Source: Leisingera caerulea DSM 24564 (GTDB taxonomy: Bacteria > Pseudomonadota > Alphaproteobacteria > Rhodobacterales > Rhodobacteraceae). Taken from it: 64,000 nucleotides of DNA. The position numbers and the translations under genes are program-made. The notes beneath the pieces are model-generated. The model saw only the letters and a list, made by a program, of their open reading frames with translations. It searched no databases and had not been told where the DNA came from. The stretch lies in contig NZ_AXBI01000019.1 of assembly GCF_000473325.1 (NCBI RefSeq), positions 181,601-245,600 of the forward strand. The letters are read 5' to 3'. Shown here piece by piece: positions 5,684 through 24,681 of the stretch (its first letter is position 1; every line of letters starts with the position of its first letter).

Positions 5684-6316
5684 TCAGCCGGCCTCGACCG
5701 CCAGAAGTTTCCGGTACATCTCCAGCAGGAACACCTCAGCCTCGGCATAGCGGTCCTGTGCCTTGGCGGGGGCGATTTCCTCGATCTGGACGTCGAAATC
5801 GGCGTAGTGCTGGGTGGTGGCCCAGATCGAATACAGCAGATGGTGCGGATCGACGGTTGCAATCCGGCCCTCGCGCATCCAGTCCTCCAGCACAGTGATC
5901 TTGGTGTTGTACAGCTCCTTCAGCGGGCCGAAGATCTCGCTGCGCGACTGCGGCAGGCCGCTCAGGATCTCATTGGCGAAGAACTTGCTTTCCTTTGGGA
6001 AATTCCGCGAGATTTCCAGCTTGCGGCGGATGTACTGGCAGATTTCGTCGATCGGGTCGCCATGCGGGCTCAGCATGTTCAGCGGCGCCATCCACAGCTG
6101 AAGGGTGCGGGCCAGAAGCTCCTTGCGGATCGCGTCCTTGCTTTCGAAATAATACAGCAGGTTCGGCGTGGTCAGCCCGGCGTTCTTGGCAATCAGGTTG
6201 ATCGACGCGCCGGAAGATCCGTGCTGGGCAAAAACCTCCAGCGCGGAGGCCAGGATTTGTTCAGTCTTTTTCCGCTGAATCCGGGTCTTCGGCTTTTCAG
6301 CTGCCATGCGCGCCAT
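5684..6316 (-). CDS. TetR-family regulator resembling RutR
   Basis: 210 residues starting at ATG 6316, with GGTGG/GGCGG-type ribosome-site bases upstream; an in-frame ATG at 6307 is also possible. The N-terminal TetR domain (KTEQILASALEVFAQHG to TPNLLYYFESKDAIRKELL, about 15-65) is clear. The C-terminal part (IDEICQYIRRKLEISRNFPK, FFANEILSG, WATTQHYADFDVQI) resembles RutR, the uracil-sensing regulator of pyrimidine utilisation. It follows the F420 operon on the same strand after a 226-bp gap that contains a hairpin. Since dihydropyrimidinase genes lie 12 kb away, a pyrimidine-responsive role is plausible but not shown. Effector identity is inference. Confidence 0.85.
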   Translation of the reverse strand: MARMAAEKPKTRIQRKKTEQILASALEVFAQHGSSGASINLIAKNAGLTTPNLLYYFESKDAIRKELLARTLQLWMAPLNMLSPHGDPIDEICQYIRRKLEISRNFPKESKFFANEILSGLPQSRSEIFGPLKELYNTKITVLEDWMREGRIATVDPHHLLYSIWATTQHYADFDVQIEEIAPAKAQDRYAEAEVFLLEMYRKLLAVEAG

Positions 6317-6542: not shown

Positions 6543-7544
6543 TCAGCGGAAGGCCGGGATGATCTTCTCGCCATAGTCGGCGATGATTTTCTCTTCGTCG
6601 CCGCTGTCGAGATAGATGTTGAACTGGGTGGTGCCGGCATCCTGCAGATCGCGGATCTTGGCGATATGTTCGTCCGGGGTGCCCAGCACGCAGAAGCTCT
6701 TGACGATGTCTTCGGTGATGAAGTCCAGGTACGGGTTATCGCTCTGGCCGTGCTTGGAATAGTCGTAGCCCTTGCGGTTCTTGATGTAGTCGGTCAGGCT
6801 GGTGGGGACGTGATCGCCGTCGGTGCCGTATTTCTCAACGATGTCAGCGACATGGTTGCCGACCATGGCGGGGAACCACTTGGTCTTCTCGATGCCTTCC
6901 TCGATCGGGCCGGTATGCGCGGGCGCTGCCGCCATCACGCGGTAGTTCGACATGTCGCGGCCTTCGGCCTCGCCGCCGGCCTTGGCCTGATCGGCCAGCC
7001 ATTTGATGATCTTGGGTTCGGCGATCTGCAGTACCACGCCGTCACCGACCTTGCCGGCCGAGGCCAGGGCCTTGGGACCATATGCGCCGATCCAGACCGG
7101 CAGTTCGTAGCCCTGGGCCCAGGGGAATTTCACCGGCTCGGGGCATTCGCCGTACTGCACTTCCTCGCCGCGGATCAGCGACTTCACGACGTGGGTGAAT
7201 TCTTCCATCCGCTTGATGGTCGACGGCTTCTTGCCCATCACCCGCACGGCGCTGTCCCCGCGGCCCAGGCCGATGTCGAAACGTCCGCCGGACTGTTTCG
7301 CCAGCGAGCCGAACAGCGAGGCTGCCACCGACCACTCGCGCGAGTTCGGGTTGGTCACCAGCGGGCCGAAGCGCATCTTGGTGGTGTGCTCCATGCACAT
7401 CGCCATCGCGACAAAGCTTTCGCGCCACAGGATGTGGCTGTCGTAGAACCAGCAGTAGGCAAAGCCTGCGTTTTCCGCCTGGCGGACCAGTGCGCGGGCG
7501 CGTTCGGGCTCAACGAAGCCCTTGAAGCAAATACCGAATTCCAT
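6543..7544 (-). CDS. F420-dependent LLM-family oxidoreductase (Mer-like), substrate unknown
   Basis: 333-residue TIM-barrel protein of the bacterial luciferase-like family. It resembles F420-dependent oxidoreductases close to methylene-tetrahydromethanopterin reductase: FYDSHILWRESF near residue 33, GRFDIGLGRGDSAVRVMG near 87-104, and PVWIGAYGPKALASAGKVGD near 150. The segment VVLQIAEP follows. It is the last gene of the cof operon, 24 bp after npdG, so its product is the obvious user of the F420H2 that the operon can make. The substrate cannot be read from sequence. Given the RutR-like regulator and nearby dihydropyrimidinase module, a pyrimidine or other N-heterocycle substrate is a hypothesis. 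No signal peptide, so cytoplasmic. Confidence 0.87.
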   Translation of the reverse strand: MEFGICFKGFVEPERARALVRQAENAGFAYCWFYDSHILWRESFVAMAMCMEHTTKMRFGPLVTNPNSREWSVAASLFGSLAKQSGGRFDIGLGRGDSAVRVMGKKPSTIKRMEEFTHVVKSLIRGEEVQYGECPEPVKFPWAQGYELPVWIGAYGPKALASAGKVGDGVVLQIAEPKIIKWLADQAKAGGEAEGRDMSNYRVMAAAPAHTGPIEEGIEKTKWFPAMVGNHVADIVEKYGTDGDHVPTSLTDYIKNRKGYDYSKHGQSDNPYLDFITEDIVKSFCVLGTPDEHIAKIRDLQDAGTTQFNIYLDSGDEEKIIADYGEKIIPAFR

Positions 7545-7568
7545 GTGTGTTTTCTCCCTGTTGGAATC

Positions 7569-8237
7569 TTAGTGTTCGGGGGCCCAGATGCGGATGCCCG
7601 CATGGGTGAAGGGCACCGCCTTGGAAATGTTCTGGCGGATCAGGATCGGGGTGATCGCCTCGATGCAGCGGGCGGCCTCGGCGTCGCCGGCGTTGTAGGC
7701 CTGAACATCCAGCGCGCCGACCAGCTCAATCACCTTCTTGCGGGCAGGCAGGCTGTTGCCGCAGACCAGGATGTCGCAGTTGATCGGCCAGTCGAGGTTG
7801 TTGAGCGTGGTCGCCGACACGTTGTGCAGCGCGCCGATCACCGGAATGTCGTCACCCAGCAGCGCCTGCGCGGCCTCGGTGGCGGAGCCTTCTGGCGGCA
7901 TTTCAACCTTCTTGGGGTCGCCTTCCTTCAGCGGCACCACGATGTCGACCAGGATCTTGCCTTCCAGCTGCGGCTTCAGCGCCTCCAGCGTGGCGTTGTG
8001 GGCAGAAAACGGCACCGCGAGGATGACCATTTCATCCGCCGCCGCGGTGGCGCCAGCATTGTCCAGCCCTTCGATCGGTGCGGCGCCTTCCGGCAGCTTT
8101 GCCATCAGGTCTGCCGCGATGCCGGCGCTGCGCTCGCCATCGCGCGAACCCAGTGCCACGGCGATCCCTGCGCGGGCAAAGCGCAGCGCCAGCCCCTGGC
8201 CCTGCGGCCCGGTGCCGCCAATGATTGCGATCTTCAT
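7569..8237 (-). CDS. npdG: NADPH-dependent F420 reductase
   Basis: 222 residues, the usual length. It transfers hydride between NADPH and coenzyme F420. The N-terminal dinucleotide motif [14 protein letters not shown] (about 6-19) and following SRD (about 31-33) are characteristic of F420:NADP oxidoreductases; the conserved [10 protein letters not shown] and ALHNVSA segments follow. Its start overlaps the cofE stop by 4 bp, so F420 synthesis and reduction are translationally coupled. In organisms that lack F420-dependent glucose-6-phosphate dehydrogenase this enzyme is the normal route to F420H2. The adjacent transhydrogenase genes could supply the NADPH. Confidence 0.92.
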
Positions 8238-9007
8238 CTGAACATATCCTCCTGTTTTTTTCTGAGTATGTCGGCGCCGCGGCTGTCGGCGGGCTGCCAG
8301 TCGAGCCCGCGCAGCAGCACCGCCGGTGTTTTTCCGTTCTTGCGCACCACCAGACCGGAGGCGGCGGAGATTTCATCGGCCAGCGCCGGTTCGGTCACCT
8401 GCAAGGGCCGCCCCCAGGCATCCAGGTTGCCCTGCTCCTGAATGGTGGCCGGGACCTTGCTCAGCCCGATGGCCACGTTGATCTGGCCCAGCCGCCAGGG
8501 GCGGCCGAAGGTGTCGGTCATCACCACGCCGATCTGCGCGCCGAAGCGGGCGGCCAGCGACGTGCGCAAACGCTCGCAGCTGGCGTCGGGGTCGCGCGGC
8601 AGCACCATCGCCGCGTCCTCCTCGCCGAAGTTCGACTCATCCACCGCGGCATTGGCGGAGATGAAACCCAGCCGGTGTTCGCAGATCATCGTGCCGGTGT
8701 TCTGATCCGGGCGGCGGAAGGCGCGCACCACCCGGGTGCTTTCGCGCAGGACGATCTCCACCTTGCGCGGGTCCTTGTTCAGCTCCTCGCCGTATTTGAC
8801 GGCCTCGTCCGAGGGCGTGACCGAGGCCAGCGGGATGATGCAGTCCTCGGCCTTGGAGAACACCTTCTGCGCGATGCACAGGATATCGCCGTCCTGCAGG
8901 CCAAGCCCGGCCTGCTCCAGGCAATCACCCAGGATCGCGCCCAGATCGTCGCCGTTCCGGATATCCGGCACGCCGGGCACGGCGGTGAGGGAGACGGACA
9001 GACTCAT
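8234..9007 (-). CDS. cofE: Coenzyme F420-0:L-glutamate ligase
   Basis: 257-residue GTP-dependent ligase that adds glutamate residues to F420-0. Visible family motifs are [10 protein letters not shown] (about 45-54), LRESTRVVR (about 87-95), [10 protein letters not shown] (about 116-125) and TDTFGRPWR (about 163-171). It is the short archaeal-type protein; the C-terminal nitroreductase-like domain present in mycobacterial FbiB is absent. Therefore a two-glutamate or short-tail F420 is possible, but tail length cannot be read from sequence. It overlaps cofC and npdG by 4 bp each. Confidence 0.93.
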
Positions 9008-9663
9008 CGCGCGCCCTCCCGCACCAGCGCCTGCGGGTCCTGCGCCAGCAGGCAGCTGAGATCCTCGGCGGTGTCGACATCAATACGCAGGCTGTCCAGC
9101 GGCAGCACCACCGGGCAAAGGCCCGCAATTTCTGCCGCACGCCGGTGGGCGATCAGCGACTTCTGCCCGTAGGCAAAGGCAAAGGGGCAGGGCAGCGGCA
9201 CCAAAAGCGCGTTGGTGCCAAGGTCGGTCGCCGGGCACAGCACCGCGCGGGTGCCGTCCAGCGGATAGGCCAGAAGCTGGGCCAGATCGTCCGGCGACGG
9301 GTCCGCCAGATCGCCCGGCAGCACGCACAGTGCCTCATACCCTTTGGCCGTTGCCCAATCCGCTGCTGCCTCCACCGCCAGCGACAGGGTGCCGGGGTCG
9401 TTGTCGTCGATGCAGATCAGCCCGGCCTGGCGCGCGATCCGCGCAATCACCGGGCTGTTGGACACCACGGCAATGTCGGCGGCGCCTTCGGGCAGCATGG
9501 CAACCGCCTCCTGCAGCCGCGTGATGGTGGAGCGGAACAGCCCCCGGGCCAGCGCTTCGCGGTCCCGCGGCGCCAGCGCCATGCTCAACCGCGTCTTGGC
9601 CCTGGAGGGGTCCTTCATCGGGATCACCGCCAGCCGCTTGCTGCATTTCACCGCCGCGCTCAT
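9004..9663 (-). CDS. cofC: 2-phospho-L-lactate (or PEP/phosphoglycerate) guanylyltransferase
   Basis: 219 residues. It activates the C3 phospho-acid with GTP to make the donor used by CofD. The nucleotidyltransferase signature VIPMKDPSRAKTRLS (about 13-27), LPGDLADPSPDD (about 115-126) and C-terminal LRIDVDTAEDL match CofC/FbiD. Which phospho-acid is used (2-phospholactate, phosphoenolpyruvate or 3-phosphoglycerate) differs among lineages and cannot be decided here. No separate FbiB or second guanylyltransferase is nearby. Overlaps both neighbours by 4 bp. Confidence 0.9.
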   Translation of the reverse strand: MSAAVKCSKRLAVIPMKDPSRAKTRLSMALAPRDREALARGLFRSTITRLQEAVAMLPEGAADIAVVSNSPVIARIARQAGLICIDDNDPGTLSLAVEAAADWATAKGYEALCVLPGDLADPSPDDLAQLLAYPLDGTRAVLCPATDLGTNALLVPLPCPFAFAYGQKSLIAHRRAAEIAGLCPVVLPLDSLRIDVDTAEDLSCLLAQDPQALVREGAR

Positions 9664-10625
9664 GCCGCCGTCTCCCGGTTTGTGCGGGCAAGGCCCAGAT
9701 CCGCAACTTCGCGTGCAAGGCGGGCCTTATCGTCCTGGGTCTTCATCAGAATGTCGCTGCAGACCGGCGCCAGCCCCATCGCGCGGATTTCGCCCGCCAG
9801 CCCGGCGTCCGCGTGGTCGATCACCAGCGTATCGGCCAGCCCGCGGTACCGCGCAGCCACACCGGCCGCATCGGCCCGTTCCCCCAGCGCCGCCATCATG
9901 CGGTCGGCCGGGCCCTTGACCACCTTGCCGCCGATGAACGGGCTGACAGCAACCTTCTGCGCACGCGCCGCGCGCAGCGCCGCGGTGATGCCCGGCACGC
10001 CCAGAATGGGGGCAATGCTGACCAGCGGGTTGGAGGGCGCAATCACGATCAAATCCGCCTGCCGGATCGCCGCCAGCGCCTCTGGCGCGGGGCGGGCCTG
10101 CGCCAGCCCGTCAAAGGCCAGCTCCCGCACGTCCGGGGCGCAGCGTTCGCGCACGAAATACTCCTGGAAGCTCAGCCAGCCCGCATCGGTGCGCACCCGT
10201 GTCTGCACCTTATTATCTGTCGGCAGCAGGATCTCCGCCCGCACCCCAAAGGCGCGCGCCACGTCGCGGGCGATATCGCTGGGCCGGTCGCCCTGCAGGC
10301 GGCGCATGGTGCGGTAGATGTGCAGGCCAAAGTCGCGGTCGCCCAGCGACATCCAGGTGTCCGCGCCCAGCTTGTTCAGCGTCTCCAGCGCCCGGTGGCC
10401 CTCATCCGCCACGCCCCAGCCCTGGTTGCGGTCGATCACATCACCCAGGCTGTAAGTCAGCGTGTCGATATCGGGCGAGACCCAGAGGCCGTGAAACTCA
10501 TCGTCATCCGCCACATTGCCGATCACCGACAGCGCCACATCCGGCAGCGCGGCCAGGCCCTCGGCCATCTTGGCACCGCCGACGCCACCCGCCAGCAGGG
10601 TGACCTTATGCTTCTGCGCGCTCAT
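9660..10625 (-). CDS. cofD: 2-phospho-L-lactate transferase (F420 assembly)
   Basis: 321 residues from ATG 10625. It joins the activated phospho-acid to the deazaflavin FO, giving F420-0 or its dehydro form. Family motifs: LLAGGVGGAKMAEGL at the N-terminus (about 10-24), VADDDEFHGLWVSPDIDTL (about 39-57) and IAPSNPLVSIAPIL in the C-terminal half. A longer in-frame reading to 11060 lies over cofH and shows no homology, so the ATG that overlaps the cofH stop (ATGA, 10622-10625) was taken. Length agrees with CofD/FbiA. Confidence 0.94.
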   Translation of the reverse strand: MSAQKHKVTLLAGGVGGAKMAEGLAALPDVALSVIGNVADDDEFHGLWVSPDIDTLTYSLGDVIDRNQGWGVADEGHRALETLNKLGADTWMSLGDRDFGLHIYRTMRRLQGDRPSDIARDVARAFGVRAEILLPTDNKVQTRVRTDAGWLSFQEYFVRERCAPDVRELAFDGLAQARPAPEALAAIRQADLIVIAPSNPLVSIAPILGVPGITAALRAARAQKVAVSPFIGGKVVKGPADRMMAALGERADAAGVAARYRGLADTLVIDHADAGLAGEIRAMGLAPVCSDILMKTQDDKARLAREVADLGLARTNRETAA

Positions 10626-11896
10626 TCTGCCGCCTCCAGCTTGGGCCCGCGTTCGGGGAACATTTCCAGAAACGCCAGCGGGTCGCTGCCCTGACGGTCC
10701 ACCAGTGGCGCGATCACCTCGGGATCGTGATCGACATAGACGTCGCGGATCTCGTAAATGGTGTTGCGGCGCACCGGCACCCGGCCCGCGGCGCGGATGA
10801 TCTCTGTCAGTTCGCGCGCTGTGATCTCCTGCCCGTGGGCAGACCCGGCCGAGCGCGAGATGCTTTCGTTCATCAGCGTGCCGCCCAGGTCGTTGACCCC
10901 GCGTGACAGCATCTGCTGTGCCCGCGCCGCGCCCAGCTTGGTCCAGCTCACTTGGATATTGTCGATCCAGCCGTGCAGCATGATGCGCGACACCGCGTGC
11001 ATCAGGTCCACCTCCAGCGCAGTCGGGCCGGGGCGCACTTTGTCCGGGTTCTGCGACCAAAGCGGCGATTCGGTATGCACAAAGGAGAGCGGCACCAGCT
11101 CGGTGAAGCCGCCGGTATCCTTCTGGATGTCGCGCAGTAGCCTGATGTGCGCGGCCCAGTGCTCAGGCCCGTCGATATGGCCGTACATGATGGTGGCGGT
11201 GGTGGGGATGCCGACCTCATGCGCGGCGCGGATGATCTCCACCCATTTTTCGGCGCTCAGCTTGTTCTTGGTCAGCTGCATCCGCACTTCGGTATCCAGG
11301 ATCTCCGCCGCGGTGCCGGGCATCGAGCCGAGACCGGCGTCTTTCAGATCCGCCAGGAAGTCGTGATAGGACATCTTGGTCTTGGACGCGCCATACCAGA
11401 TCTCAAACGGCGAGAAGGCATGGATATGCATGTCCGGCAGCGCTGCCTTGATGGCGCGGATAATGTCGCGGTAGTAGGTTCCCTCCATCTTGGGATGCAG
11501 GCCGCCCTGGATGCAGACCTCGGTCGCACCGCGGTCCCAGGCCTCCTGCGCGCGCTCGACGATCTGTTCGGGCTCCAGCCACTCGGCGTCCTTGTCCTCG
11601 CTGCGCTTGGCAAAACCGCAGAAGCGGCAGCCCATATAGCAGATGTTGGTGAAGTTGATGTTGCGGTTCACCACAAAGGAGACGCGGTCGCCATTGGCGC
11701 GGCGGCGCAGCTCGTCGGCCACGGCATAGACGGCCACGGCGTCAGCGCCGGTGGCGCGGAACAGCTCGACGCCTTCGGCTTCGGACACTTCGCCGCCCTC
11801 CAGCGCCATCTCCAGAATGGCGCGGACCGGGGCGGAGGCGGCGCCGACGGCAGCCGGGACCGCGGCAAAATTCTCGGCGGGGTGCTGGATGGTCAT
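10622..11896 (-). CDS. cofH: FO synthase subunit 2 (radical SAM)
   Basis: 424-residue radical SAM enzyme that couples 4-hydroxybenzyl-type radicals from tyrosine to the flavin precursor 5-amino-6-ribitylaminouracil. The iron-sulfur motif CYMGCRFC (Cys86, Cys90, Cys93) is followed by CIQGGLHPKMEGTYY and the C-terminal GGTLMNESISRSAGS typical of CofH and the related MqnC. Genome context (cofG, cofD, cofC, cofE) rules out menaquinone synthesis. Overlaps cofG and cofD by 4 bp each. Together with CofG it replaces the fused FbiC of actinobacteria. Confidence 0.95.
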   Translation of the reverse strand: MTIQHPAENFAAVPAAVGAASAPVRAILEMALEGGEVSEAEGVELFRATGADAVAVYAVADELRRRANGDRVSFVVNRNINFTNICYMGCRFCGFAKRSEDKDAEWLEPEQIVERAQEAWDRGATEVCIQGGLHPKMEGTYYRDIIRAIKAALPDMHIHAFSPFEIWYGASKTKMSYHDFLADLKDAGLGSMPGTAAEILDTEVRMQLTKNKLSAEKWVEIIRAAHEVGIPTTATIMYGHIDGPEHWAAHIRLLRDIQKDTGGFTELVPLSFVHTESPLWSQNPDKVRPGPTALEVDLMHAVSRIMLHGWIDNIQVSWTKLGAARAQQMLSRGVNDLGGTLMNESISRSAGSAHGQEITARELTEIIRAAGRVPVRRNTIYEIRDVYVDHDPEVIAPLVDRQGSDPLAFLEMFPERGPKLEAAE

Positions 11897-13035
11897 GCTG
11901 TCTCTCCGATGTGGCGCTGATCGCGGGCGAGGCCGTTTTCCTGGGCCATGCCGGCCGCACGGGCCAGCACGCCGGGGTTGATGAAGCCGCTGTCCCCGGT
12001 CAGGTAGCGGGGGTAAACGGTGAGCCGCTCGCGCAGGTCAAAACCGGCCCCGGTGCAGGAGCTTGCCAGCGCTCGGATCTCCGGCCATTCGTGCTGCGGG
12101 TTGATGAAGTCGATGGTCACGGGCGAAATGCCGCCCCAGTCGTTGATGCCTGCCTCCAGATAGGCGATGTGGCGGGCGCTGAGGTTCGGCGGCGCCTGCA
12201 GGCTGATCTCCGGTGCCAGGATGATGCGGGCGGCGGCGATGGTGCGCAGCATGTCCTCCAGCGCCGGTTCCGGGTGGTTCGCCATCTCGATATCCGGCTT
12301 GCGCTGGAAGTTCTGGATGATCACTTCCTGGATGTGGCCGTGGCGGGCGTGGGCGTTGTTGATGGCGTGCAGCGCCTCGATCCGCTCGGCAAATGTTTCG
12401 CCAATGCCGATCAGCAGGCCGGTGGTGAAGGGCACCTGTTTCTCGCCTGCGCGCTCCAGCGTGCGCAGCCGCTGCACCGGCACCTTGTCGGGGCAGGCAT
12501 AATGCGGCTGGCCCTTGCGGGTCAGGCGGCGGCTCACGGTTTCCAGCATCATCCCCATCGAGGCGGAGACCGGGCGCAGCACGTCGATCTCGTCATCGGT
12601 GAGGGTGCCCGCGTTCACATGCGGCAGCAGGCTGGTTTCCGTCAGCACCAGCTCGCACATGTCGCGCAGGTAATCGGTCAGGCGGGAATAGCCGAGCTTT
12701 TCCAGCCCCTTGCGGGCCTTCTCATAACGCAGTTCCGGCTTTTCACCGAGGCTGAAGAGGAGTTCCTTGCAGCCCTCGCGCTCACCCTTCTGTGCGGTGG
12801 CCAGCACCTGCTCCGGCGTCATGATATTGGCCTCCGGAGACTCCGGATGCTTGACGAAGGTGCAGTAGCCGCAGGTGTCGCGGCACATGTTGGTCAAAGG
12901 CACAAAGGCCTTGCGCGAATAGGTGACCGTGCGGCCCCAGTGGGCGTCGCGGATCCCGGCTGCGCGCATCATCAGGGCGCGCAAATCCCCGGTCTCCGCC
13001 CAGGCTGTGCCTGTGCTGAGCGATTGGGTGTTCAT
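11893..13035 (-). CDS. cofG: FO synthase subunit 1 (radical SAM)
   Basis: 380 residues; second half of FO synthase and first gene of the leftward F420 operon. The radical SAM motif CRDTCGYC gives Cys51, Cys55 and Cys58, and FSLGEKPE, HVNAGTLTDDE and GISPVTIDFINPQHEWPEI are characteristic CofG segments. The ATG at 13035 has a strong GGAGG site (AGGGAGGACACC) just upstream. Separate cofG and cofH genes are the arrangement of archaea and cyanobacteria; actinobacteria have a fused gene. Promoter elements should lie in the AT-rich gap shared with pntA. Confidence 0.95.
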   Translation of the reverse strand: MNTQSLSTGTAWAETGDLRALMMRAAGIRDAHWGRTVTYSRKAFVPLTNMCRDTCGYCTFVKHPESPEANIMTPEQVLATAQKGEREGCKELLFSLGEKPELRYEKARKGLEKLGYSRLTDYLRDMCELVLTETSLLPHVNAGTLTDDEIDVLRPVSASMGMMLETVSRRLTRKGQPHYACPDKVPVQRLRTLERAGEKQVPFTTGLLIGIGETFAERIEALHAINNAHARHGHIQEVIIQNFQRKPDIEMANHPEPALEDMLRTIAAARIILAPEISLQAPPNLSARHIAYLEAGINDWGGISPVTIDFINPQHEWPEIRALASSCTGAGFDLRERLTVYPRYLTGDSGFINPGVLARAAGMAQENGLARDQRHIGETA

Positions 13036-13273
13036 GGTGTCCTCCCTGCCTCAAAGACTGTGGAGGAGGGCGCGGCATGTCAAATATTTTTTTAGCTGTA
13101 AGTCAAAAAAAATACCGTGAAGGTGTGTTGATTGCAGATAATAGGCTGTTTTTAAACTGCAAAAAATATGAGCTGACAAAAATATTGACTACTAAGTAAA
13201 ACATCCAAATACTTCTTCCCAATCGCAGGCAGCCGGTTTGCCGGACGCTTCAGCGAAAAGGGAGGACATTGAA
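13036..13273. promoter_or_regulatory. Divergent cofG/pntA control region
   Basis: Strikingly AT-rich compared with the surrounding DNA. Two 16-bp elements share TTGACT-N3-A-N2-TAAA: one on the minus strand at 13091-13106 facing cofG, the other on the plus strand at 13185-13200 facing pntA. Both have the outline TTGAC-N6-(G/C)TAAA, reminiscent of the RutR operator TTGAC-N6-GTCAA but with mismatches. A looser inverted repeat, GTCAAATATTT (13079-13089) against AAATATTGAC (13180-13189), brackets most of the region. Binding by the RutR-like TetR protein is a guess. Confidence 0.45.
13185..13213 (+). promoter_or_regulatory. Candidate pntAB promoter
   Basis: TTGACT (13185-13190), 17-bp spacer, AATACT (13208-13213): five of six and four of six matches to the sigma-70 consensus with ideal spacing. 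It would give a leader of about 55 nt before the GTG at 13274. The -35 hexamer lies inside the palindrome-like element at 13185-13200. Confidence 0.5.
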
Positions 13274-14845
13274 GTGCTTATTGGAACGCCAAGGGAGTTG
13301 GCGGCTGGAGAGTCGCGCGTTGCGATGACGCCGGACTCTGCGCGTCAGCTGCAGAAGCTGGGGTATGATTGCGCGATCGAGGCCGGGGCCGGGGCGGCGG
13401 CGGGGTTTTCCGATGCCGCTTACGAAGCCGCCGGGGTCGAGATCATCAAGACACCGGCCGCGCTGTGGAAAGCCGCCGATATTGTCGCCAAGGTGCGCCA
13501 GCCGGACGCCACCGAGCTGAAGCGGCTGACCAAGGGCAAGACGCTGATTTCCTTCTTCAACCCGGCTGGGAACGAAGAAGGCATGGCGCTGGCCAAGGCC
13601 AAGGGCGCCAATGTGATCGCCATGGAAATGGTGCCGCGGATCAGCCGCGCGCAGAAGATGGATGCGCTGTCGTCGATGGCCAATATCGCGGGCTACCGCG
13701 CGGTCATCGAGGCGGGCAACAACTTCGGCCGCTTCTTCACTGGCCAGATCACCGCGGCAGGCAAGGTGCCGCCCGCCAAGGTGCTGGTGGTCGGCGCAGG
13801 CGTCGCGGGGCTTGCCGCGATCGGCACCTCGACCTCGCTGGGCGCGGTGACCTATGCCTTTGACGTGCGCCCCGAAGTGGCCGAGCAGGTGGAATCGATG
13901 GGCGCCGAATTCGTCTATCTCGATTTCGAGGAGGAGCAGCAGGACGGCAGCGCCTCGGGCGGCTATGCCTCTGTTTCCTCGCCGGAATTCCGCGAAGCGC
14001 AGCTGGCGAAGTTCCGCGAGCTGGCGCCGGAGATGGACATCGTCATCACCACCGCGCTGATCCCCAACCGCGAGGCGCCGGAGCTGTGGACCGAGGATAT
14101 GGTCGCGGCGATGAAGCCGGGCTCGGTCATCGTCGACCTGGCGGCGGAGAAGGGCGGCAACTGCAAGCTGACCGTGGCGGATGAGAAGATCGTGACCGAC
14201 AACGGCGTCACCATCATCGGCTACACTGATTTCCCCAGCCGGATGGCGGCGCAGTCCTCGACGCTTTATGCCACCAACATCCGCCACATGATGGCCGACC
14301 TCACGCCGGACAAGGACGGCCAGGTCAACCACGACATGGAGGACGACGTGATCCGCGGCGCCACCGTGGCGTTTGAGGGCGAGATCACCTTCCCGCCGCC
14401 GCCGCCCAAGGTGCAGGCGATTGCCGCCAAGCCCAAGGAGACGGTGCCGGAGCTGACGCCGGAGGAAAAACGCGCCCAGGAGGTTGCGGCCTTCAAGGCG
14501 CAGACCAAGAGCCAGGTCACCCTGCTGGCGGGCGGCGGTGCGCTGCTCTTGCTGGTGGGCCTCTTTGCGCCGGTCAGCTTCATGCAGCATTTCATCGTCT
14601 TTGCGCTGGCCTGTTTCGTGGGCTTCCAGGTGATCTGGGGCGTGGCGCACAGCCTGCACACGCCGCTGATGGCGGTGACCAACGCGATCTCCTCGATCAT
14701 CATCCTGGGCGCTTTGATGCAGATCGGCTCCGGCTCGTTCCTGGTGATCCTGCTGGCGGCGCTCAGCGTCTTCATGGCGGGTATCAACATCTTCGGCGGC
14801 TTCCTCGTCACCCGGCGCATGCTCGCCATGTTCCAGAAATCTTAA
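13274..14845 (+). CDS. pntA: NAD(P) transhydrogenase subunit alpha
   Basis: 523 residues. The start was set at GTG 13274, since GGAGGA (13261-13266) lies 7 bp upstream and family homology begins with (M)[18 protein letters not shown]; a TTG at 13238 would add 12 unrelated residues. The N-terminal NAD(H)-binding domain I includes [16 protein letters not shown] Pro/Lys-rich linker leads to four C-terminal membrane helices (from about residue 415). It is the fused E. coli-like alpha chain; many alphaproteobacteria instead split it into PntAA and PntAB. With PntB it uses the proton gradient to reduce NADP+ with NADH. Divergent from the F420 operon. Confidence 0.95.
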
Positions 14846-14860
14846 AGCGAGGCAGGTAAA

Positions 14861-16300
14861 ATGGATTACGGTTTCACCACCGCCGCCTATGTCGTTGCGG
14901 CTGTTCTTTTCATCCTGTCGCTTGGCGGCCTCTCCAACCAGGAAAGCGCCAAGCGCGCGGTCTGGTACGGCATTGCCGGCATGGGGCTGGCGGTTTTTGC
15001 CACCCTGATCGGCCCCGGCTCCGGCCTGTGGCTCTTGTCGGTCCTGCTGATCGCGGGCGGCGGCCTCATCGGCACCTATGTCGCCAAGCGGGTGCAGATG
15101 ACCGAGATGCCGCAGCTGGTCGCCGCGATGCACTCGCTGGTCGGCCTCGCCGCGGTGTTCGTCGGCTTCATCGCCCATTTCGAGATCGGCAATGTGGCGG
15201 CGGCCGTGGCTGCGGGCAGCACCGAGGACCTGGGCACCTTTGCCAAGCTGATCGCCAAGAAGACCCCGGCCGAGATCGCCTTCCTGCGCGTGGAACTCTT
15301 CCTCGGCATCTTCATCGGTGCGATCACCTTCACCGGCTCGGTCATCGCTTTCGGCAAGCTGGCGGGCAAGGTGACCTCGGCCGCGACCAAGCTGCCGGGC
15401 GGCCACATGCTGAACGCCAGCGCCGCGGGGCTCTCCTTTCTCTGCCTGATCTGGTACTTCAACTCGGGCGGCTTCCTGCCGCTCCTGCTGATGACGCTGG
15501 CGGCGCTGTTCATCGGCTACCACCTGATCATGGGCATCGGCGGCGCCGACATGCCGGTGGTGGTCTCGATGCTGAACAGCTACTCCGGCTGGGCCGCGGC
15601 GGCGATCGGCTTCTCGCTTGGCAATGACCTCTTGATCGTGGTCGGCGCGCTGGTCGGCTCCTCCGGTGCGATCCTCAGCTACATCATGTGCAAGGCGATG
15701 AACCGCTCCTTCATCAGCGTGATCCTGGGCGGCTTCGGCGGCACCACGGGGCCTGCGATGGAGATCGACGGCGAGCAGATCGCCATCGACGCCGACGGCG
15801 TGGCGGCGGCGCTGGAGGAGGCCGATTCTGTGGTGATCATCCCCGGCTACGGCATGGCGGTGGCGCAGGCGCAGCAGAACGTCGCCGAACTGACCCGGCG
15901 TTTGCGGGCAAAAGGGAAAGATGTGCGGTTTGCTATCCACCCGGTTGCAGGCCGCCTGCCGGGCCACATGAACGTCCTCTTGGCCGAGGCCAAGGTGCCT
16001 TACGACATCGTGCTGGAGATGGACGAGATCAACGAGGATTTCCCGGACACCGACGTGGCCATCGTCATCGGCTCCAACGACATCGTGAACCCTGCCGCGC
16101 AGGAGGACCCCAACTCCCCCATCGCCGGCATGCCGGTTCTGGAGTGCTGGAAGGCGAAACAGGTCTTCGTCTCCAAGCGCGGCCAGGGCACGGGCTACTC
16201 CGGCATCGAGAACCCCCTGTTCTTCAAGGAAAACACCCGCATGTTCTACGGCGATGCAAAGCAAAGCCTCGACACGCTGCTGAACCAGGTTGCGGCCTGA
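14861..16300 (+). CDS. pntB: NAD(P) transhydrogenase subunit beta
   Basis: 479 residues, normal length. An N-terminal set of eight or nine membrane helices carries the proton path. The C-terminal domain III binds NADP(H): [15 protein letters not shown] (about 325), [18 protein letters not shown], and [19 protein letters not shown] with the following [13 protein letters not shown]. It follows pntA by 15 bp with AGGCAGG-like ribosome-site bases. Together the two subunits form the inner-membrane proton-pumping transhydrogenase. Confidence 0.96.
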
Positions 16301-16325
16301 CCACTCTCAAGAAAAGGATTCGGAT

Positions 16326-17645
16326 ATGACCACTGATCCAAAACGCGCAAACGCGATGGACGCCTATTGGATGCCGTTCACGGCCAACCGGCAGTTCAAG
16401 CAAAACCCGCGCATGGTCGCTGCGGCGGAGGGGATGTATTACACCACCACCGACGGGCGGAAGGTGATGGATGGCACCGCGGGCCTGTGGTGCGTCAATG
16501 CAGGCCACGCCGCGCCGCGCATCACCGAAGCGGTGCAGAAACAGGTCACCGAACTGGACTATGCGCCCGCCTTCCAGATGGGCCACCCCAAGGCGTTTGA
16601 GCTGGCCAACCGACTTGCCGAGCTGGCGCCGGGCGATCTGAACCACGTGTTCTTCACCAACTCCGGCTCTGAATCGGTGGAGACCGCGCTGAAGATCGCG
16701 CTGGCCTATCACAAGGCCAAGGGCGAGCAGGGCCGCACCCGGCTGATCGGCCGCGAGAAGGGCTATCACGGGGTCAATTTCGGCGGCATTTCGGTGGGCG
16801 GGATCGTCAACAACCGCCGCCATTTCGGCAGCCTGCTGACCGGCGTCGACCACCTGCGCCACACCCATGATCCGGAGCGCAACGCCTTTACCAAGGGCCA
16901 GCCGGAGCATGGCGCGGAGCTGGCCGAAGACCTGGTGCGGCTCATTGACCTGCACGGGGCCGAAACCATCGCCGCGGTGATCGTCGAGCCGATGGCGGGC
17001 TCCGCCGGGGTGATCCTGCCGCCCAAGGGCTATTTGCAGCGGCTGCGCGAGATCACCCGCGAGCATGGCATCCTGCTGATCTTTGACGAGGTGATCACCG
17101 CCTATGGCCGCCTGGGCCGGGCGTTTGGCGCCGATTACTACGGCGTCGAGCCGGACATAATCACCACCGCCAAGGGCCTTACCAACGGGGTGATCCCGAT
17201 GGGTGCGGTGATGGTCAGCAGCGAAATCCACGACGCCTTCATGACCGGGCCGGAGCATATGATTGAGCTGTTCCACGGCTACACCTACTCCGGCAACCCG
17301 GTCGCCTGTGCGGCCGCCCTGGCGGCGCTGGACACCTACCGCGAGGAGGAGCTGTTCGAGCGCGCCGCGTCGCTGGAGGAATATTGGGCCGACGCGCTGT
17401 TCAGCCTCAAGGGGCTGCCGCATGTGAAGGACATCCGCTGCGCGGGCCTGGTCGGCGCGGTGGAGCTGGAGCCGGTGGCGGGCGTGCCGACCAAGCGCGC
17501 CTTCGACACCTACCTGCGCGCCTGGGACAAGGGGGCGCATCTGCGCACCACCGGCGACATCATCGCCATGTCGCCGCCGCTGATCATCGAAAAACGGGAA
17601 ATCGACGAGCTGATCGGCATTCTGGCCGAGTCGCTCATCGCGTGA
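16326..17645 (+). CDS. Class III omega-aminotransferase, probably beta-alanine:pyruvate
   Basis: 439 residues from ATG 16326, which has AAAAGGA upstream. PLP-dependent fold type I enzyme: GTAGLWCVNAGHA, FFTNSGSESVETALKIA and GYHGVNFGG are typical, and TAKGLTNGVIPMGAV carries the Schiff-base lysine (Lys283). It resembles beta-alanine:pyruvate transaminases. Directly downstream are an N-carbamoyl amidohydrolase and dihydropyrimidinase, so conversion of beta-alanine (from uracil) or 3-aminoisobutyrate (from thymine) to a semialdehyde is the likely role. Substrate choice is inferred from neighbours. Confidence 0.9.
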   Translation: MTTDPKRANAMDAYWMPFTANRQFKQNPRMVAAAEGMYYTTTDGRKVMDGTAGLWCVNAGHAAPRITEAVQKQVTELDYAPAFQMGHPKAFELANRLAELAPGDLNHVFFTNSGSESVETALKIALAYHKAKGEQGRTRLIGREKGYHGVNFGGISVGGIVNNRRHFGSLLTGVDHLRHTHDPERNAFTKGQPEHGAELAEDLVRLIDLHGAETIAAVIVEPMAGSAGVILPPKGYLQRLREITREHGILLIFDEVITAYGRLGRAFGADYYGVEPDIITTAKGLTNGVIPMGAVMVSSEIHDAFMTGPEHMIELFHGYTYSGNPVACAAALAALDTYREEELFERAASLEEYWADALFSLKGLPHVKDIRCAGLVGAVELEPVAGVPTKRAFDTYLRAWDKGAHLRTTGDIIAMSPPLIIEKREIDELIGILAESLIA

Positions 17646-17708
17646 GGACCTGCCCCTGGCCTGCGGCCCAAGCGGCGCGCGGGGCAGGGGCGGCAAAGGG
17701 AGAGAGAT

Positions 17709-18968
17709 ATGAAAGACGTGCAAAGCAACGCCCGCATCAACGGCAGCCGCCTGTGGGACTCGCTGATGGAGATGGCAACCAAGGGCCCGGGGGTGCGCGG
17801 CGGCAACAACCGCCAGACGCTGACCGATGCCGACAAGGAAGGCCGCGACCTGTTCAAGCGCTGGTGCGAAGAGGCCGGCATGACGGTGGGCGTGGACAGC
17901 ATGGGCAACATGTTTGCCCGCCTGGAAGGCACCGAGCCGGATCTGGATCCGGTGATGATGGGCAGCCATCTGGACACCCAGCCGACGGGCGGCAAATACG
18001 ACGGCGTCCTTGGCGTGCTGGCGGGGCTTGAGGTGGTGCGCTCGATCCGCGATCTGGGCATCACCCCGCGCCGCCCTATCGTGGTGGTGAACTGGACCAA
18101 CGAGGAGGGCACGCGGTTTGCCCCCGCCATGCTGTCCTCCGGCGTCTTTGCGGGCGTTCATACCCAGGACTGGGCCTATGCGCGTGAGGACGCGGAGGGC
18201 AAAAAGTTCGGCGAGGAGCTGTCCCGGATCGGCTACAAGGGCGATGAGCCGGTGGGCAACCGCAAGATGCACGCAATGTTCGAGCTGCATATCGAGCAAG
18301 GCCCCATTCTGGAGGCCGAGGGCAAGGACATCGGCGTCGTGACCCACGGTCAGGGCCTGAACTGGCTGCAGGTCACGCTGACCGGCCAGGAAGCGCATAC
18401 CGGCTCCACCCCGATGCCGATGCGCCGCAATGCGGGCCTTGGCGCCGCGCGGATCACCGATCTGGTGCATGAGATCGCGATGAGCCACCAGCCCGATGCG
18501 GTTGGTGCTGTCGGCCACTGCGACTATTACCCCAACAGCCGCAACATCGTGCCGGGCAAGGTCGTGTTCACCATCGACTTCCGCTCGCCCAGCTTTGACA
18601 CCCAGACCGACATGGAACAGCGCCTGCGCGAAGGTGCTGCCAGGATCGCAGGGGAGCTGGAACTGGGACTGGAGATCGAGCAGGTGGGCCATTTCGACCC
18701 GGTGACCTTTGACGAGGGCTGCGTGGAGGCGGTGCGCCGGGCGGCCGAAAAGCTGGGCTATTCGCACCGCAACATCATTTCTGGCGCGGGCCATGATGCC
18801 TGCTGGATCAACAAGGTGGCGCCGACCGCCATGGTGATGTGCCCCTGCGTTGACGGCCTCAGCCACAACGAGGACGAGGAAATCAGCCGCGAATGGGCGG
18901 CGGCGGGGACGGATGTGCTGCTGCACGCCGTTCTGGAAACCGCAGAGATTGTGGAGGAGCAGGCATGA
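17709..18968 (+). CDS. M20-family N-carbamoyl amidohydrolase (beta-ureidopropionase-type)
   Basis: 419-residue dinuclear metal hydrolase of the hydantoinase/carbamoylase branch of the M20 peptidase clan. Metal-binding and catalytic segments are MGSHLDTQPTGGKYDG (about 80-95), NWTNEEGTRFAPAM (about 128-141), ELHIEQGPILE (about 195-205) and SGAGHDACWINK near the C-terminus. It hydrolyses N-carbamoyl-beta-alanine or N-carbamoyl amino acids to the amine, CO2 and ammonia. It lies between the transaminase and dihydropyrimidinase genes and overlaps the latter by 4 bp, which supports the pyrimidine role over generic hydantoin cleavage. Confidence 0.9.
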   Translation: MKDVQSNARINGSRLWDSLMEMATKGPGVRGGNNRQTLTDADKEGRDLFKRWCEEAGMTVGVDSMGNMFARLEGTEPDLDPVMMGSHLDTQPTGGKYDGVLGVLAGLEVVRSIRDLGITPRRPIVVVNWTNEEGTRFAPAMLSSGVFAGVHTQDWAYAREDAEGKKFGEELSRIGYKGDEPVGNRKMHAMFELHIEQGPILEAEGKDIGVVTHGQGLNWLQVTLTGQEAHTGSTPMPMRRNAGLGAARITDLVHEIAMSHQPDAVGAVGHCDYYPNSRNIVPGKVVFTIDFRSPSFDTQTDMEQRLREGAARIAGELELGLEIEQVGHFDPVTFDEGCVEAVRRAAEKLGYSHRNIISGAGHDACWINKVAPTAMVMCPCVDGLSHNEDEEISREWAAAGTDVLLHAVLETAEIVEEQA

Positions 18969-20425
18969 GCCAGAGAACCGTAATCAAGGGCGGCACGATT
19001 GTTGCCGCTGACCGCAGCTATGCCGCCGATGTCGCCATCGAGGACGGCAAAATCGTCCAGATCGGCGCAAACCTCAGCGGCGACAAGGTGCTCGACGCCG
19101 AGGGCTGCTTTGTCATGCCCGGCGGCATCGACCCCCATGTGCATCTGGAAATGCCCTTCATGGGCACCCATTCGGCGGATGACTTTGAATCCGGCACCCG
19201 CGCGGGCCTTGCAGGCGGCACCACCATGGTGGTGGACTTCTGCCTGCCCAGCCCCGGCCAGTCGATGCTGGAGGCGCTGGAGGCCTGGCACGCCAAGTCG
19301 AAACGCGCCTGCGCCGACTATTCCTTCCACATGGCGGTGACCTGGTGGAGCGAGCAGGTGTTCAACGAGATGCAGCAGGTTGTGGAGCTGGGCATCAACT
19401 CCTTCAAGCACTTCATGGCCTATAAGGGCGCGCTGATGGTGGATGATGATGAGCTGTTCGACAGCTTCCGCCGCTGCGCCGCGCTGGGTGCGCTGCCGAT
19501 GGTGCATGCGGAAAACGGCGACGTGGTGGCCACCATGCAGCAGAAGCTGCTGGCCGACGGCATCCGCGGCCCCGAAGGCCACGGGCTGTCGCGCCCGCCC
19601 GAGGTAGAGGGCGAAGCCACCAACCGCGCCATTATGATCGCCGACATGGCGGGCGTGCCGCTGTACGTCGTGCACACCTCCTGCGAGCAGGCGCATGAGG
19701 CGATCCGCCGGGCGCGCCAGAAAGGCATGCGCGTCTTCGGCGAGCCGCTGATCCAGCATCTGGTGCTGGACGAAAGCGAATACCGCAACCCCAACTGGGA
19801 CCACGCCGCGCAGCGGGTGATGTCGCCGCCGTTCCGCGACAAGGCGCATCAGGACAGCCTCTGGGCCGGCCTTCAGGCAGGATCGCTGCAGGTGGTGGCG
19901 ACCGACCACTGCGCCTTCACCGTGGATCAGAAACGCTTTGGCATCGACGATTTCACCAAGATCCCGAACGGCACCGGCGGCCTTGAGGACCGGATGCCTG
20001 TCCTGTGGAGCGAGGGCGTGAACACCGGGCGGCTGACACCGAACGAGTTTGTGGCCGTGACCTCGACCAATATCGCGCGTATCCTCAACATATACCCGCG
20101 CAAAGGGGCCATCCTGGAAGGCTCCGACGCCGATCTGGTGGTGTGGGACCCGAAGAAGTCCAAGGTGATCTCGCCCGAAACCCAGCAGTCGGTGGTGGAG
20201 TACAACGTCTTCTCCGGCCGCGAGGTGACCGGCCTGCCGCGCTATACCCTCAGCCGCGGCGAACTGGCGGTGGACGACGGCACCGTCTGCGCCACTCCGG
20301 GGCACGGGCGTTTTGTTGAACGGCCCGCGTTCCCGGAAGTCAACAAGGCGCTGTCCAAGTGGAAAGAGGTCACCGCGCCGCGCCAGGTGGTGCGCTCGGC
20401 TGAAAACATGCCGGCCTGCGTCTGA
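18965..20425 (+). CDS. hydA: Dihydropyrimidinase (hydantoinase)
   Basis: 486 residues starting at the ATG that overlaps the preceding stop (ATGA). It opens dihydrouracil or dihydrothymine rings. The amidohydrolase metal motif PGGIDPHVHLEMPFMG (about 55-70), the lysine of FKHFMAYKG (Lys154) expected to be carboxylated and bridge two zinc ions, HAENGDVV, VHTSCEQA and VVATDHCAF (catalytic Asp) are all present. Length is standard for the family. The following NCS1 transporter gene lies 94 bp away, after a small hairpin. Confidence 0.94.
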   Translation: MSQRTVIKGGTIVAADRSYAADVAIEDGKIVQIGANLSGDKVLDAEGCFVMPGGIDPHVHLEMPFMGTHSADDFESGTRAGLAGGTTMVVDFCLPSPGQSMLEALEAWHAKSKRACADYSFHMAVTWWSEQVFNEMQQVVELGINSFKHFMAYKGALMVDDDELFDSFRRCAALGALPMVHAENGDVVATMQQKLLADGIRGPEGHGLSRPPEVEGEATNRAIMIADMAGVPLYVVHTSCEQAHEAIRRARQKGMRVFGEPLIQHLVLDESEYRNPNWDHAAQRVMSPPFRDKAHQDSLWAGLQAGSLQVVATDHCAFTVDQKRFGIDDFTKIPNGTGGLEDRMPVLWSEGVNTGRLTPNEFVAVTSTNIARILNIYPRKGAILEGSDADLVVWDPKKSKVISPETQQSVVEYNVFSGREVTGLPRYTLSRGELAVDDGTVCATPGHGRFVERPAFPEVNKALSKWKEVTAPRQVVRSAENMPACV

Positions 20426-20519: not shown

Positions 20520-22010
20520 ATGGCTGATGTAACCAGCGGGTATTCCGCGTCCGGCGCCGAGGCGCCGCCGCAGGTGGATCTGACCGGGATCGACCCCGAA
20601 CTATACAACGAGGACCAGCTGCCGACGACGGCTGCGGAACGCACCTGGGACTGGGTGGCGATTGCCGCGCTTTGGGTTGGCATGGTGGTCTGCATCCCGA
20701 CCTATCTGCTGGCCTCCTACCTGATCGGCTCGGGCATGAGCTGGGATCAGGCGGTGATGACCATTCTGGTCGCCAACGCGATCGTGCTGATCCCGATGGT
20801 GCTGGTGGGCCATGCCGGCACCAAATACGGCATCCCCTTCCCGGTACTGCTGCGGTCTTCCTTCGGACCCACCGGCGCAAAGATCCCGGCGGTGGCCCGC
20901 GGCATCGTTGCCTGCGGCTGGTTCGGCATCCAGACCTGGGTTGGCGGCTCTGCGATCTTTGTGATCCTTAACACCCTGACCGGCGGTGCGCTGGCGGGCG
21001 AGGCGCTGCCGGTGCTGGGCATCAGCGCGGGCGAGTTCATCTGCTTCCTCGCCTTCTGGGCGCTGCATCTCTACTTCATAGCCAACGGTACCGAGTCGAT
21101 CCGCTGGCTGGAGACCTATGCAGCCCCGTTCCTGCTGGCGATGGGCCTGGCGCTCCTGGCCTGGGCCTATGTCAACGCAGGCGGTTTCGGCGAGATGTTG
21201 TCGACCCCCAGCGCCTTTGATCCGGGCCAGCCGCAGGAAGGCCAGTTCTGGGTTGTCTTCTGGCCGAGCCTGACCGGCATGATCGGTTTCTGGGCGACGC
21301 TGGCGCTGAACATCCCCGACTTCACCCGCCACGCCAAAAGCCAGAAGGACCAGCTTTTGGGCCAGATGGTCGGCCTGCCGATCCCGATGGCGCTGTTTGC
21401 CTTCATCGCCTCCGCCGTGACCTCGGCCACTGTGGTGATCTATGGCGAGGCGATCTGGGATCCGATCCAGCTGTCTGAGAAGATGGGCGGGTTCTCGGTG
21501 ATCATCGCGCTGTTTGCGCTGATCGTTGCGACGCTGACCACCAACCTGGCGGCAAACGTGGTGGCACCGGCGCACGGGTTCTCGAACCTGGCCCCCAGCA
21601 AGATCAACCTCAAGCGCGGCGGCTATATCACCGCGGGCATCGGCATTGCCATGTTCCCCTGGATCCTGGTGAATCACATCATCGGCTGGCTGATCGCCTA
21701 TTCGGCGCTGCTGGGCCCGATTGCGGGCGTGATGCTGGCGGACTACTACCTGCTGCGCAAAACCAAGCTGGAAGTGGCGGATCTGTTCAAGATGAACGGC
21801 ATCTATTCCGGCAGCAACGGCACCAACTGGGCCGGTGTCTGGGCACTTGTGATCGGCATCCTGCCGAACCTGCCGGGCTTCCTGGCCGGTGTCGGCATCA
21901 CTGCGGGCACCTCGGACTTCTTTGCCACGATCTACACCTACGCCTGGTTCGTGGGACTGTTCGTGGCCGGCGCTGCCTATCTGGTGCTGGCGAAGATCCT
22001 GAATAAGTGA
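20520..22010 (+). CDS. NCS1-family nucleobase/hydantoin transporter
   Basis: 496 residues from ATG 20520 with a strong AGGGAGGAA ribosome site. Cation-coupled symporter of the NCS1 family (Mhp1, allantoin, uracil, cytosine permeases) with about 12 membrane helices. GTKYGIPFPVLLRSSFG and GWFGIQTWVGG match the substrate-contacting helices 1 and 3 of the family, and FWATLALNIPDFTR is the conserved helix 6 segment. Being the last gene of the pyrimidine module, it probably imports uracil, thymine or a dihydropyrimidine/hydantoin. Confidence 0.9.
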   Translation: MADVTSGYSASGAEAPPQVDLTGIDPELYNEDQLPTTAAERTWDWVAIAALWVGMVVCIPTYLLASYLIGSGMSWDQAVMTILVANAIVLIPMVLVGHAGTKYGIPFPVLLRSSFGPTGAKIPAVARGIVACGWFGIQTWVGGSAIFVILNTLTGGALAGEALPVLGISAGEFICFLAFWALHLYFIANGTESIRWLETYAAPFLLAMGLALLAWAYVNAGGFGEMLSTPSAFDPGQPQEGQFWVVFWPSLTGMIGFWATLALNIPDFTRHAKSQKDQLLGQMVGLPIPMALFAFIASAVTSATVVIYGEAIWDPIQLSEKMGGFSVIIALFALIVATLTTNLAANVVAPAHGFSNLAPSKINLKRGGYITAGIGIAMFPWILVNHIIGWLIAYSALLGPIAGVMLADYYLLRKTKLEVADLFKMNGIYSGSNGTNWAGVWALVIGILPNLPGFLAGVGITAGTSDFFATIYTYAWFVGLFVAGAAYLVLAKILNK

Positions 22011-22068: not shown

Positions 22069-22362
22069 ATGCCCAAAGCCTATTGGATTGCCCATGTCAC
22101 CGTGACCAATCCCGACCCCTACAAGCTGTACGCTGAAGGCGCGACGGAGGCGTTCAAGACATTCGGCGCCCGCGTTCTGGCCCGCGGCGGCGCCTGCGAG
22201 CAGATGGAGGGCGACGGCCATCCGCGCAACGTGGTGATCGAGTTCGACTCGATGGAAGCCGCGCTTGGCTGCTACAACTCGCCGGAATACCAGGCCGCCA
22301 AAGCGCACCGCGAGGGCGCGGGGCTGGCCAATATCGTGATCGTCGAAGGCGCGCCTGGCTGA
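22069..22362 (+). CDS. DUF1330 family protein
   Basis: 97-residue ferredoxin-like fold protein of the DUF1330 family, whose members are small dimeric alpha/beta-barrel proteins without agreed function. The N-terminal KAYWIAHVTVTNPDPYKLYA and C-terminal VVIEFDSMEAALGCYNSPEY motifs define the family. GGAG precedes the ATG. It lies after the terminator of the pyrimidine operon, so it is read either by leak-through or by its own promoter. Confidence 0.85.
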   Translation: MPKAYWIAHVTVTNPDPYKLYAEGATEAFKTFGARVLARGGACEQMEGDGHPRNVVIEFDSMEAALGCYNSPEYQAAKAHREGAGLANIVIVEGAPG

Positions 22363-24644: not shown

Positions 24645-24681
24645 GGTCGGTTGCCTTTGCTTCGGGGGTCTTGTTTCGGGG

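Follow-up and report, generated by a model that had tools for sequence, protein, structure and literature searches.

The window analysed here is a 64,000-nucleotide stretch of Leisingera caerulea DSM 24564 (contig NZ_AXBI01000019.1), in which genes for the cofactor F420 and for an LLM-class F420-dependent oxidoreductase lie beside genes for the late steps of reductive pyrimidine breakdown. Two divergent gene sets flank the region at 13.04–13.27 kb. The leftward set, on the minus strand, is composed of overlapping or tightly spaced genes (profile scores are given in bits against the curated cut-off). It begins with the FO synthase subunit genes cofG (11893–13035; TIGR03550, 454 vs 213), the first of the operon, and cofH (10622–11896; TIGR03551, 513 vs 374). 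These are followed by cofD (2-phospho-L-lactate transferase, 9660–10619; TIGR01819, 290 vs 257), cofC (guanylyltransferase of F420 synthesis, 9004–9663; TIGR03552, 140 vs 105), cofE (F420-0 glutamate ligase with one Pfam domain, 8234–9007; TIGR01916, 221 vs 181), npdG (Fno; NADPH-dependent F420 reductase and proposed F420H2 supplier, 7569–8237; TIGR01915, 191 vs 150) and the LLM gene (6543–7544). All five Cof proteins and NpdG passed their cut-offs; an earlier sequence-only reading of this DNA had named a full F420 synthesis set. A gene for a TetR-family regulator comes next on the same strand (5684–6316). It matched PF08362 (147 bits) and fell short of the cut-off of the RutR model itself (TIGR03613, 194 vs 368); it may work like RutR.

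The rightward set, on the plus strand, opens with the open frames of pntA (transhydrogenase alpha subunit, 13274–14845) and pntB (beta subunit, 14870–16300). They match annotated pntA of a Leisingera caerulea plasmid at 99.6%, from which we took the name and start, and annotated pntB at 98.5%. Further along are genes for a class III omega-aminotransferase (about 16323–17645; NF052567 AptA, 750 vs 500), a HyuC/PydC-type N-carbamoyl amidohydrolase (17709–18968), the dihydropyrimidinase HydA (18965–20425; TIGR02033, 616 vs 393) and an NCS1-family nucleobase transporter (about 20520–22010, with its start from the plasmid annotation; TIGR00800, 364 vs 353). The nearest solved sequence to HydA is the dihydropyrimidinase 3dc8 (844 bits). 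The HyuC protein passed the cut-off of a subfamily model named allantoate amidohydrolase (NF006769, 696 vs 452), and its nearest solved sequences (8apz, 8aq0 and 8c46) include an N-carbamoyl-beta-alanine amidohydrolase (8c46). The gene content and order given by the sequence-only reading were confirmed by the open frames, the profile matches and the annotated near-identical plasmid. Its statement that the window holds no PreTA/PydA agrees with a whole-genome search, which covered PreA and not PreT and gave no PreA match on the window's contig.

The LLM protein is a member of TIGR03842 (506 vs 295), a model typed as hypothetical equivalog. In Pfam it matched PF00296 (Bac_luciferase) alone, and it matched no PreA model in NCBIfam. 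Its nearest relative in both sequence and fold, the latter judged from an AF2 model, is the F420-dependent methylene-tetrahydromethanopterin reductase Mer. However, the Mer models were not passed (134 bits vs cut-offs of 276 and 349), and the gene context of Mer differs from that of the LLM protein. RutA, a flavin-dependent oxygenase that opens the uracil ring oxidatively, shares 15% identity with the LLM protein, and its model (TIGR03612) was absent from the 22 NCBIfam families matched at E ≤ 0.001. Residues W40 and D97 occupy the alignment positions of the Trp and Glu in Fgd-type proteins and are invariant in five TIGR03842 members, including one from Streptomyces. A catalytic histidine at position 37 was considered and dropped, as the Streptomyces protein carries a serine there. 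The Mer-like fold and the linked cof and npdG or Fgd-type genes suggest that F420 is the cofactor of the LLM protein.

We examined the surroundings of this protein in the best 80 of 303 relatives from a search of named genome contigs, where genes lost at locus ends lower the per-gene counts. The F420 genes were near LLM in most loci (cofE in 76, cofD in 75, npdG in 72, cofH and cofC in 71 each, cofG in 69). The other genes recurred as well: RutR-like TetR in 47, hyuC in 42, NCS1 in 26, hydA in 24, the aminotransferase in 14 and pntA in 6. With identity thresholds, hyuC or hydA was present in 45 of the 80 loci, and a further 16 had only a RutR-like TetR or a pyrimidine-type binding protein. The co-occurrence of LLM, hydA and cof genes that the sequence-only reading had proposed to check was observed in part of the loci. 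The 45 linked loci span 22 genus or metagenome/single-cell assembly labels from alpha- and gammaproteobacteria; the labels may include close relatives, and the number of independent lineages may be lower. In Cohaesibacter the genes run in the order hydA, ABC genes, cofGHDCE, npdG and LLM. The SAR116 loci contain an aminotransferase gene together with hydA, ABC and cof genes, npdG and LLM. In one Cohaesibacter locus, that of C. celericrescens, a cytosine deaminase gene (742 vs 438) adjoins LLM on the opposite strand.

Whole-genome coordinates placed hydA within 12 kb of LLM in 32 of 49 genomes, after L058, L060 and L111 had been dropped from an initial 35. In these three the hydA coordinates belong to a different contig, which is that of PreA for two of them and was recognised from overlapping intervals for the third. 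Contig identity of the remaining hydA neighbours comes from coordinates and not from names; the L057 coordinate also fits the PreA contig, and there hydA lies inside the locus. Because 48 of the 49 genomes, of 1.2–6.2 Mb, have 1–3 hydA matches, we estimate chance proximity at about 1–2%. An F420 reductase also accompanies LLM, either NpdG or, in seven loci, an Fgd-type protein (490 vs 420 in the one scanned). These seven (L082, L084, L089, L091, L096, L106 and L111) form a second cof cluster type, which includes the Fgd-type protein and is oriented divergently to LLM; one long frame in it spans cofG and cofH and is perhaps a fused FO synthase. As a separate observation, five loci (L088, L100, L102, L113 and L114) have LLM with neither a pyrimidine gene nor a convincing operator nearby, and two of them, L100 and L102, keep npdG with no cof genes seen.

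Another phylum is represented by one locus, which is the whole of the actinobacterial evidence. Streptomyces sp. BHT-5-2 encodes a TIGR03842 protein (590 bits) that is 43% identical to the window's LLM protein, and its gene begins 11 bases behind one for a dihydropyrimidinase (554 vs 393). Two minus-strand frames precede this pair, and upstream of them lie a frame resembling an aminotransferase, with 29% identity to the window's own, and a nitrilase-type amidase. The amidase scored under its cut-off (TIGR03381, 257 vs 410), and its nearest solved relatives are N-carbamoylputrescine amidase and beta-ureidopropionases. Since this amidase differs in type from HyuC, the LLM protein is associated with the pathway rather than with one set of genes. 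The arrangement thus goes beyond chance, being kept in other genera, in another class and, in this one case, in another phylum.

The cluster is also found on plasmids of Leisingera aquaemixtae (about 175 kb), L. caerulea (about 250 kb) and Paracoccus alcaliphilus (403 kb). Twelve PLSDB records matched LLM (ten Leisingera, one Paracoccus and one Streptomyces), and the module of the present genome is probably plasmid-borne. Beside the P. alcaliphilus cluster, the ABC genes after LLM were rejected as pyrimidine type (binding protein 25% identical), and isochorismate, isochorismatase and SDR genes were set aside as siderophore-like, a gene order that we take to be of the siderophore type. A DUF1330 protein follows NCS1 in the window (22069–22362), and a 76% identical one precedes cofG on the P. 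alcaliphilus plasmid; it was seen only in these two plasmid loci and in none of the 80 LLM loci. Further downstream in the window, frames at 22475–24983 match by position the sulfopyruvate decarboxylase subunits and alpha-hydroxy acid oxidase of the annotated Leisingera plasmid, and lie outside the present finding.

The sequence-only reading supposed that the pathway misses its reduction enzyme, and named a PreTA pair elsewhere in the genome as its main weakness. That weakness proved real, and the premise is wrong for this genome. PreA (434 aa; NF006183, 727 vs 335) is encoded on another contig (C8), adjoined by a PreT-like protein (462 aa), which we named by position and family since its best model was under the cut-off (NF009410, 313 vs 516). 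This locus also holds a TetR gene of its own, HyuC, HydA and an ABC transporter with an NMT1/THI5-type binding protein. The late pathway is therefore present twice in the genome, once with PreTA and once with the F420 module, and the two copies are 74% identical for HyuC, 73% for HydA and 47% for the regulator. Relatives of the PreTA-locus binding protein, 65–80% identical, were identified in 14 LLM loci of species without PreA. The other PreTA-locus proteins reach 81% (HyuC, in L074), 76% (HydA) and 61% (regulator) in LLM loci of PreA-less species. Judged from these resemblances, PreTA and LLM loci may serve the same pathway with the reductase swapped.

The same question was asked of whole genomes with PreA searches at E ≤ 1e-40 (1e-100 in the order of the window), thresholds that remoter reductases would escape; some of the genomes encoding LLM are partial single-cell or metagenome assemblies. 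Among 49 such genomes, PreA was found in 11, dihydropyrimidinase above cut-off in 47 and RutA above cut-off in one. The 38 without PreA include Paracoccus denitrificans DSM 413, six Pseudovibrio, three Cohaesibacter, six Marinomonas, Oceanospirillum and Pseudomonas saudimassiliensis. Dihydropyrimidinase was above cut-off in 36 of these 38, and 35 of the 36 had no above-cut-off RutA. A second batch of 29 genomes gave PreA in 7, so that in total 18 of 78 LLM genomes have PreA and 60 do not. An anti-correlation with PreTA, which the sequence-only reading had proposed to look for, was not found among the 292 genomes of the window's order. Any TIGR03842 match occurred in 250 of these 292 genomes, of which only four were above cut-off; the others are weak hits at superfamily level and were left out of the count. 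In a sample of the phylum, LLM was present in 2 of 398 genomes, one being the present genome, and in the order of genome G444, LLM was present in 2 and PreA in 4 of 76 with no overlap, numbers too small to judge.

A predicted RutR-type operator connects these loci. In other species, we identified a 20-bp palindrome near TTTTGACC-N4-GGTAAAA before cofG. We trained a matrix on 47 upstream regions, none of them from the Leisingera group, and it scored at least 18 bits in 35 of them. Because learning started from a RutR-like seed, the motif was also tested against shuffled upstream sequences and against loci that had not been used in training. Fifteen of 20 representative cofG upstream regions scored at least 15 bits; 100 shuffles averaged 0.55 and never exceeded 2. 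In the window, the two best places of the whole 64 kb both fall in the cofG/pntA gap, the top one before cofG (13089–13108, 11.0 bits) and the second before pntA (13183–13202, 9.4 bits), and ten simulated windows gave no more than 6.3. In the PreTA locus of this genome, which was not in the training set, the same matrix scored 23.3 bits in the hyuC/tetR gap and 23.1 bits ahead of preT. The seven loci of the second cof cluster type, also outside training, have their best site 70–110 bp before LLM, in the gap shared with divergent cofD, at 18.5–25.5 bits in six and 11.2 in one (simulated-locus maxima up to 10.5).

A genome-wide pattern matched six places in this genome and none in the reversed control. 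It had been designed around the two PreTA-locus sites and the one at 13183, and only three of the six matches are therefore new; the site at 13089 was unmatched. One lies 18 bases before a cytidine deaminase frame (L134, 1090–1482) and another 45 bases before a class III aminotransferase frame resembling glutamate-1-semialdehyde aminomutase (L131, 1562–2836); these two genes are perhaps further members of the regulon. The sixth match (L130, 1501–1516; G000:C5:248259) has no evident target gene. The exact E. coli RutR box, with up to three mismatches, gave two matches in the window against 1.34 expected, neither of them in the cofG/pntA gap. The window's predicted operator is a degenerate variant, detected only after learning from other species.

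Based on this, we propose that the LLM protein of family TIGR03842 reduces uracil and thymine with F420H2 and is thereby a counterpart of PreTA/PydA, non-homologous to it and coexisting with PreTA in this genome; we regard this as probable. The sequence-only reading had put forward the same reaction; its support from linkage, gene content and the operator is good, whereas its premise of an absent PreTA was lost. In the proposed route, bases would be imported by NCS1 or, as often in other species, by an ABC transporter, and F420H2 would be made from NADPH by PntAB together with NpdG. The LLM protein would transfer hydride to ring C6 with protonation of C5, giving dihydrouracil or dihydrothymine. 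HydA would then open the ring of the dihydropyrimidine, HyuC would remove the carbamoyl group, and beta-alanine or beta-aminoisobutyrate would give up its amino group to the aminotransferase. Repressors of the RutR type would control both the cof-LLM operon and the catabolic genes, and cofactor and pathway would therefore be made together, presumably in response to pyrimidines.

Several observations weigh against this proposal. The genome of the window has PreTA, and LLM and PreA are not exclusive in its order, where PreA is present in 262 of 292 genomes, LLM above cut-off in 4 and both in 3. L088 comes from a genome in which PreA and hydA are both absent and two RutA-like genes fall under the cut-off, and P. 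alcaliphilus has no hydA within 14 kb of its cluster. In 19 of the 80 loci the linked genes are all absent. Eleven of the 19 have an operator-like site of at least 16.8 bits, a count in which L078, L080, L081 and L083 were training loci and the L088 site is barely over its null (15.2) and away from LLM. The operator itself failed the test in 5 of the 20 representatives (L074, L075, L077, L088 and L090), of which L075 and L077 may have their promoter elsewhere because cofG follows the hydA-ABC genes on the same strand, and the two sites in the window score low. The AF2 model is poor (pLDDT < 50) at residues 37–39 and 97–102, in likely active-site loops. Finally, F420 is reported only in trace amounts in Paracoccus denitrificans in the available sections of PMC8498797.

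The presence of PreTA leaves room for a different substrate: the LLM protein would belong to the same regulon but reduce another ring, such as a modified pyrimidine, a hydantoin or another ureide, and PreTA or another enzyme would reduce uracil and thymine. We consider this rather unlikely. Both systems do occur in this genome with separate HydA and HyuC copies, and hydantoins are also opened by HydA-type enzymes. The absence of PreA from most LLM genomes argues for the pyrimidines themselves, and the cytosine deaminase beside one LLM gene and the cytidine deaminase behind one operator match point to uracil. A comparable case is offered by Chloroflexota uric acid clusters without YgfK and PydA-like reductase, for which the available sections of PMC12507026 suggest an F420-dependent LLM dehydrogenase acting on yanthine. 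That case resembles ours in that an LLM protein takes the place held elsewhere by YgfK or a PydA-like reductase; it differs in pathway and phylum, and is putative. A dehydrogenase running in reverse, oxidising a dihydropyrimidine or other substrate and passing electrons to F420, would be in keeping with the LLM relatives Fgd and Adf, which are F420-reducing dehydrogenases according to the sections of PMC8498797 available to us, and with the Fgd-type alignment of W40 and D97. We find it very improbable, given that LLM travels with NpdG or an Fgd-type reductase and in six loci with pntA, a company that fits consumption of F420H2.

Two further explanations would detach the LLM protein from F420 or from pyrimidines. 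As a RutA-like oxygenase, it would open uracil with flavin and oxygen, and the F420 genes would be incidental. We give this hardly any credence: the nearest sequence and fold are those of the F420 enzyme Mer, no RutA family was matched, each cof gene is near LLM in 69–76 of the 80 loci, and HydA would be left without a role. An unrelated F420 function of the cof-LLM operon, brought near pyrimidine genes through plasmid hitch-hiking, would account for the plasmid clusters of Leisingera and P. alcaliphilus and for the loci with no linked pyrimidine gene. Its probability seems to us very small, as linkage recurs in 45 loci under 22 labels, the Streptomyces locus is linked with a carbamoyl-amidase of another type, and the operator is kept in Roseibium-type loci that have lost the linkage.

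With regard to the cofactor (cofE and cofC, 8234–9663), the window's CofE lacks a domain for dehydro-F420 reduction, and the operon showed no source of phospholactate, so that more than one form of F420 could be made here. The CofC of Paracoccus denitrificans was among those assayed in PMC8764529; in its available sections, phospholactate was the best substrate for all, which according to the authors may depend on the CofD chosen. Our literature search covered open-licence work, with closed-access work outside its scope, and found no report of F420-dependent uracil reduction, nor do the available sections of PMC10143877, PMC8397731, PMC12855090 and PMC8305020 report it.

Compared with PreTA/PydA, the LLM protein shares the same proposed step, the same kinds of partner (HydA, HyuC, a transporter and a RutR-like regulator) and the operator type. 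In contrast, it consists of one Bac_luciferase domain, whereas PreA matches dihydroorotate dehydrogenase models and PreT glutamate synthase small-subunit models; it would use F420H2 instead of NAD(P)H, and it comes with its own cofactor genes. If the proposal is true, reductive pyrimidine breakdown would gain a non-homologous enzyme for its opening reaction. Why Proteobacteria make F420 is given as an unanswered question in the available sections of PMC8498797. We lean, by a slight preference, towards the broader view that in many marine alpha- and gammaproteobacteria F420 would serve mainly for pyrimidine reduction, with the whole cofactor pathway being a pyrimidine-inducible part of the catabolic regulon, and that TIGR03842 may represent a widespread, so far unrecognised class of dihydropyrimidine-forming reductases, also in actinobacteria.

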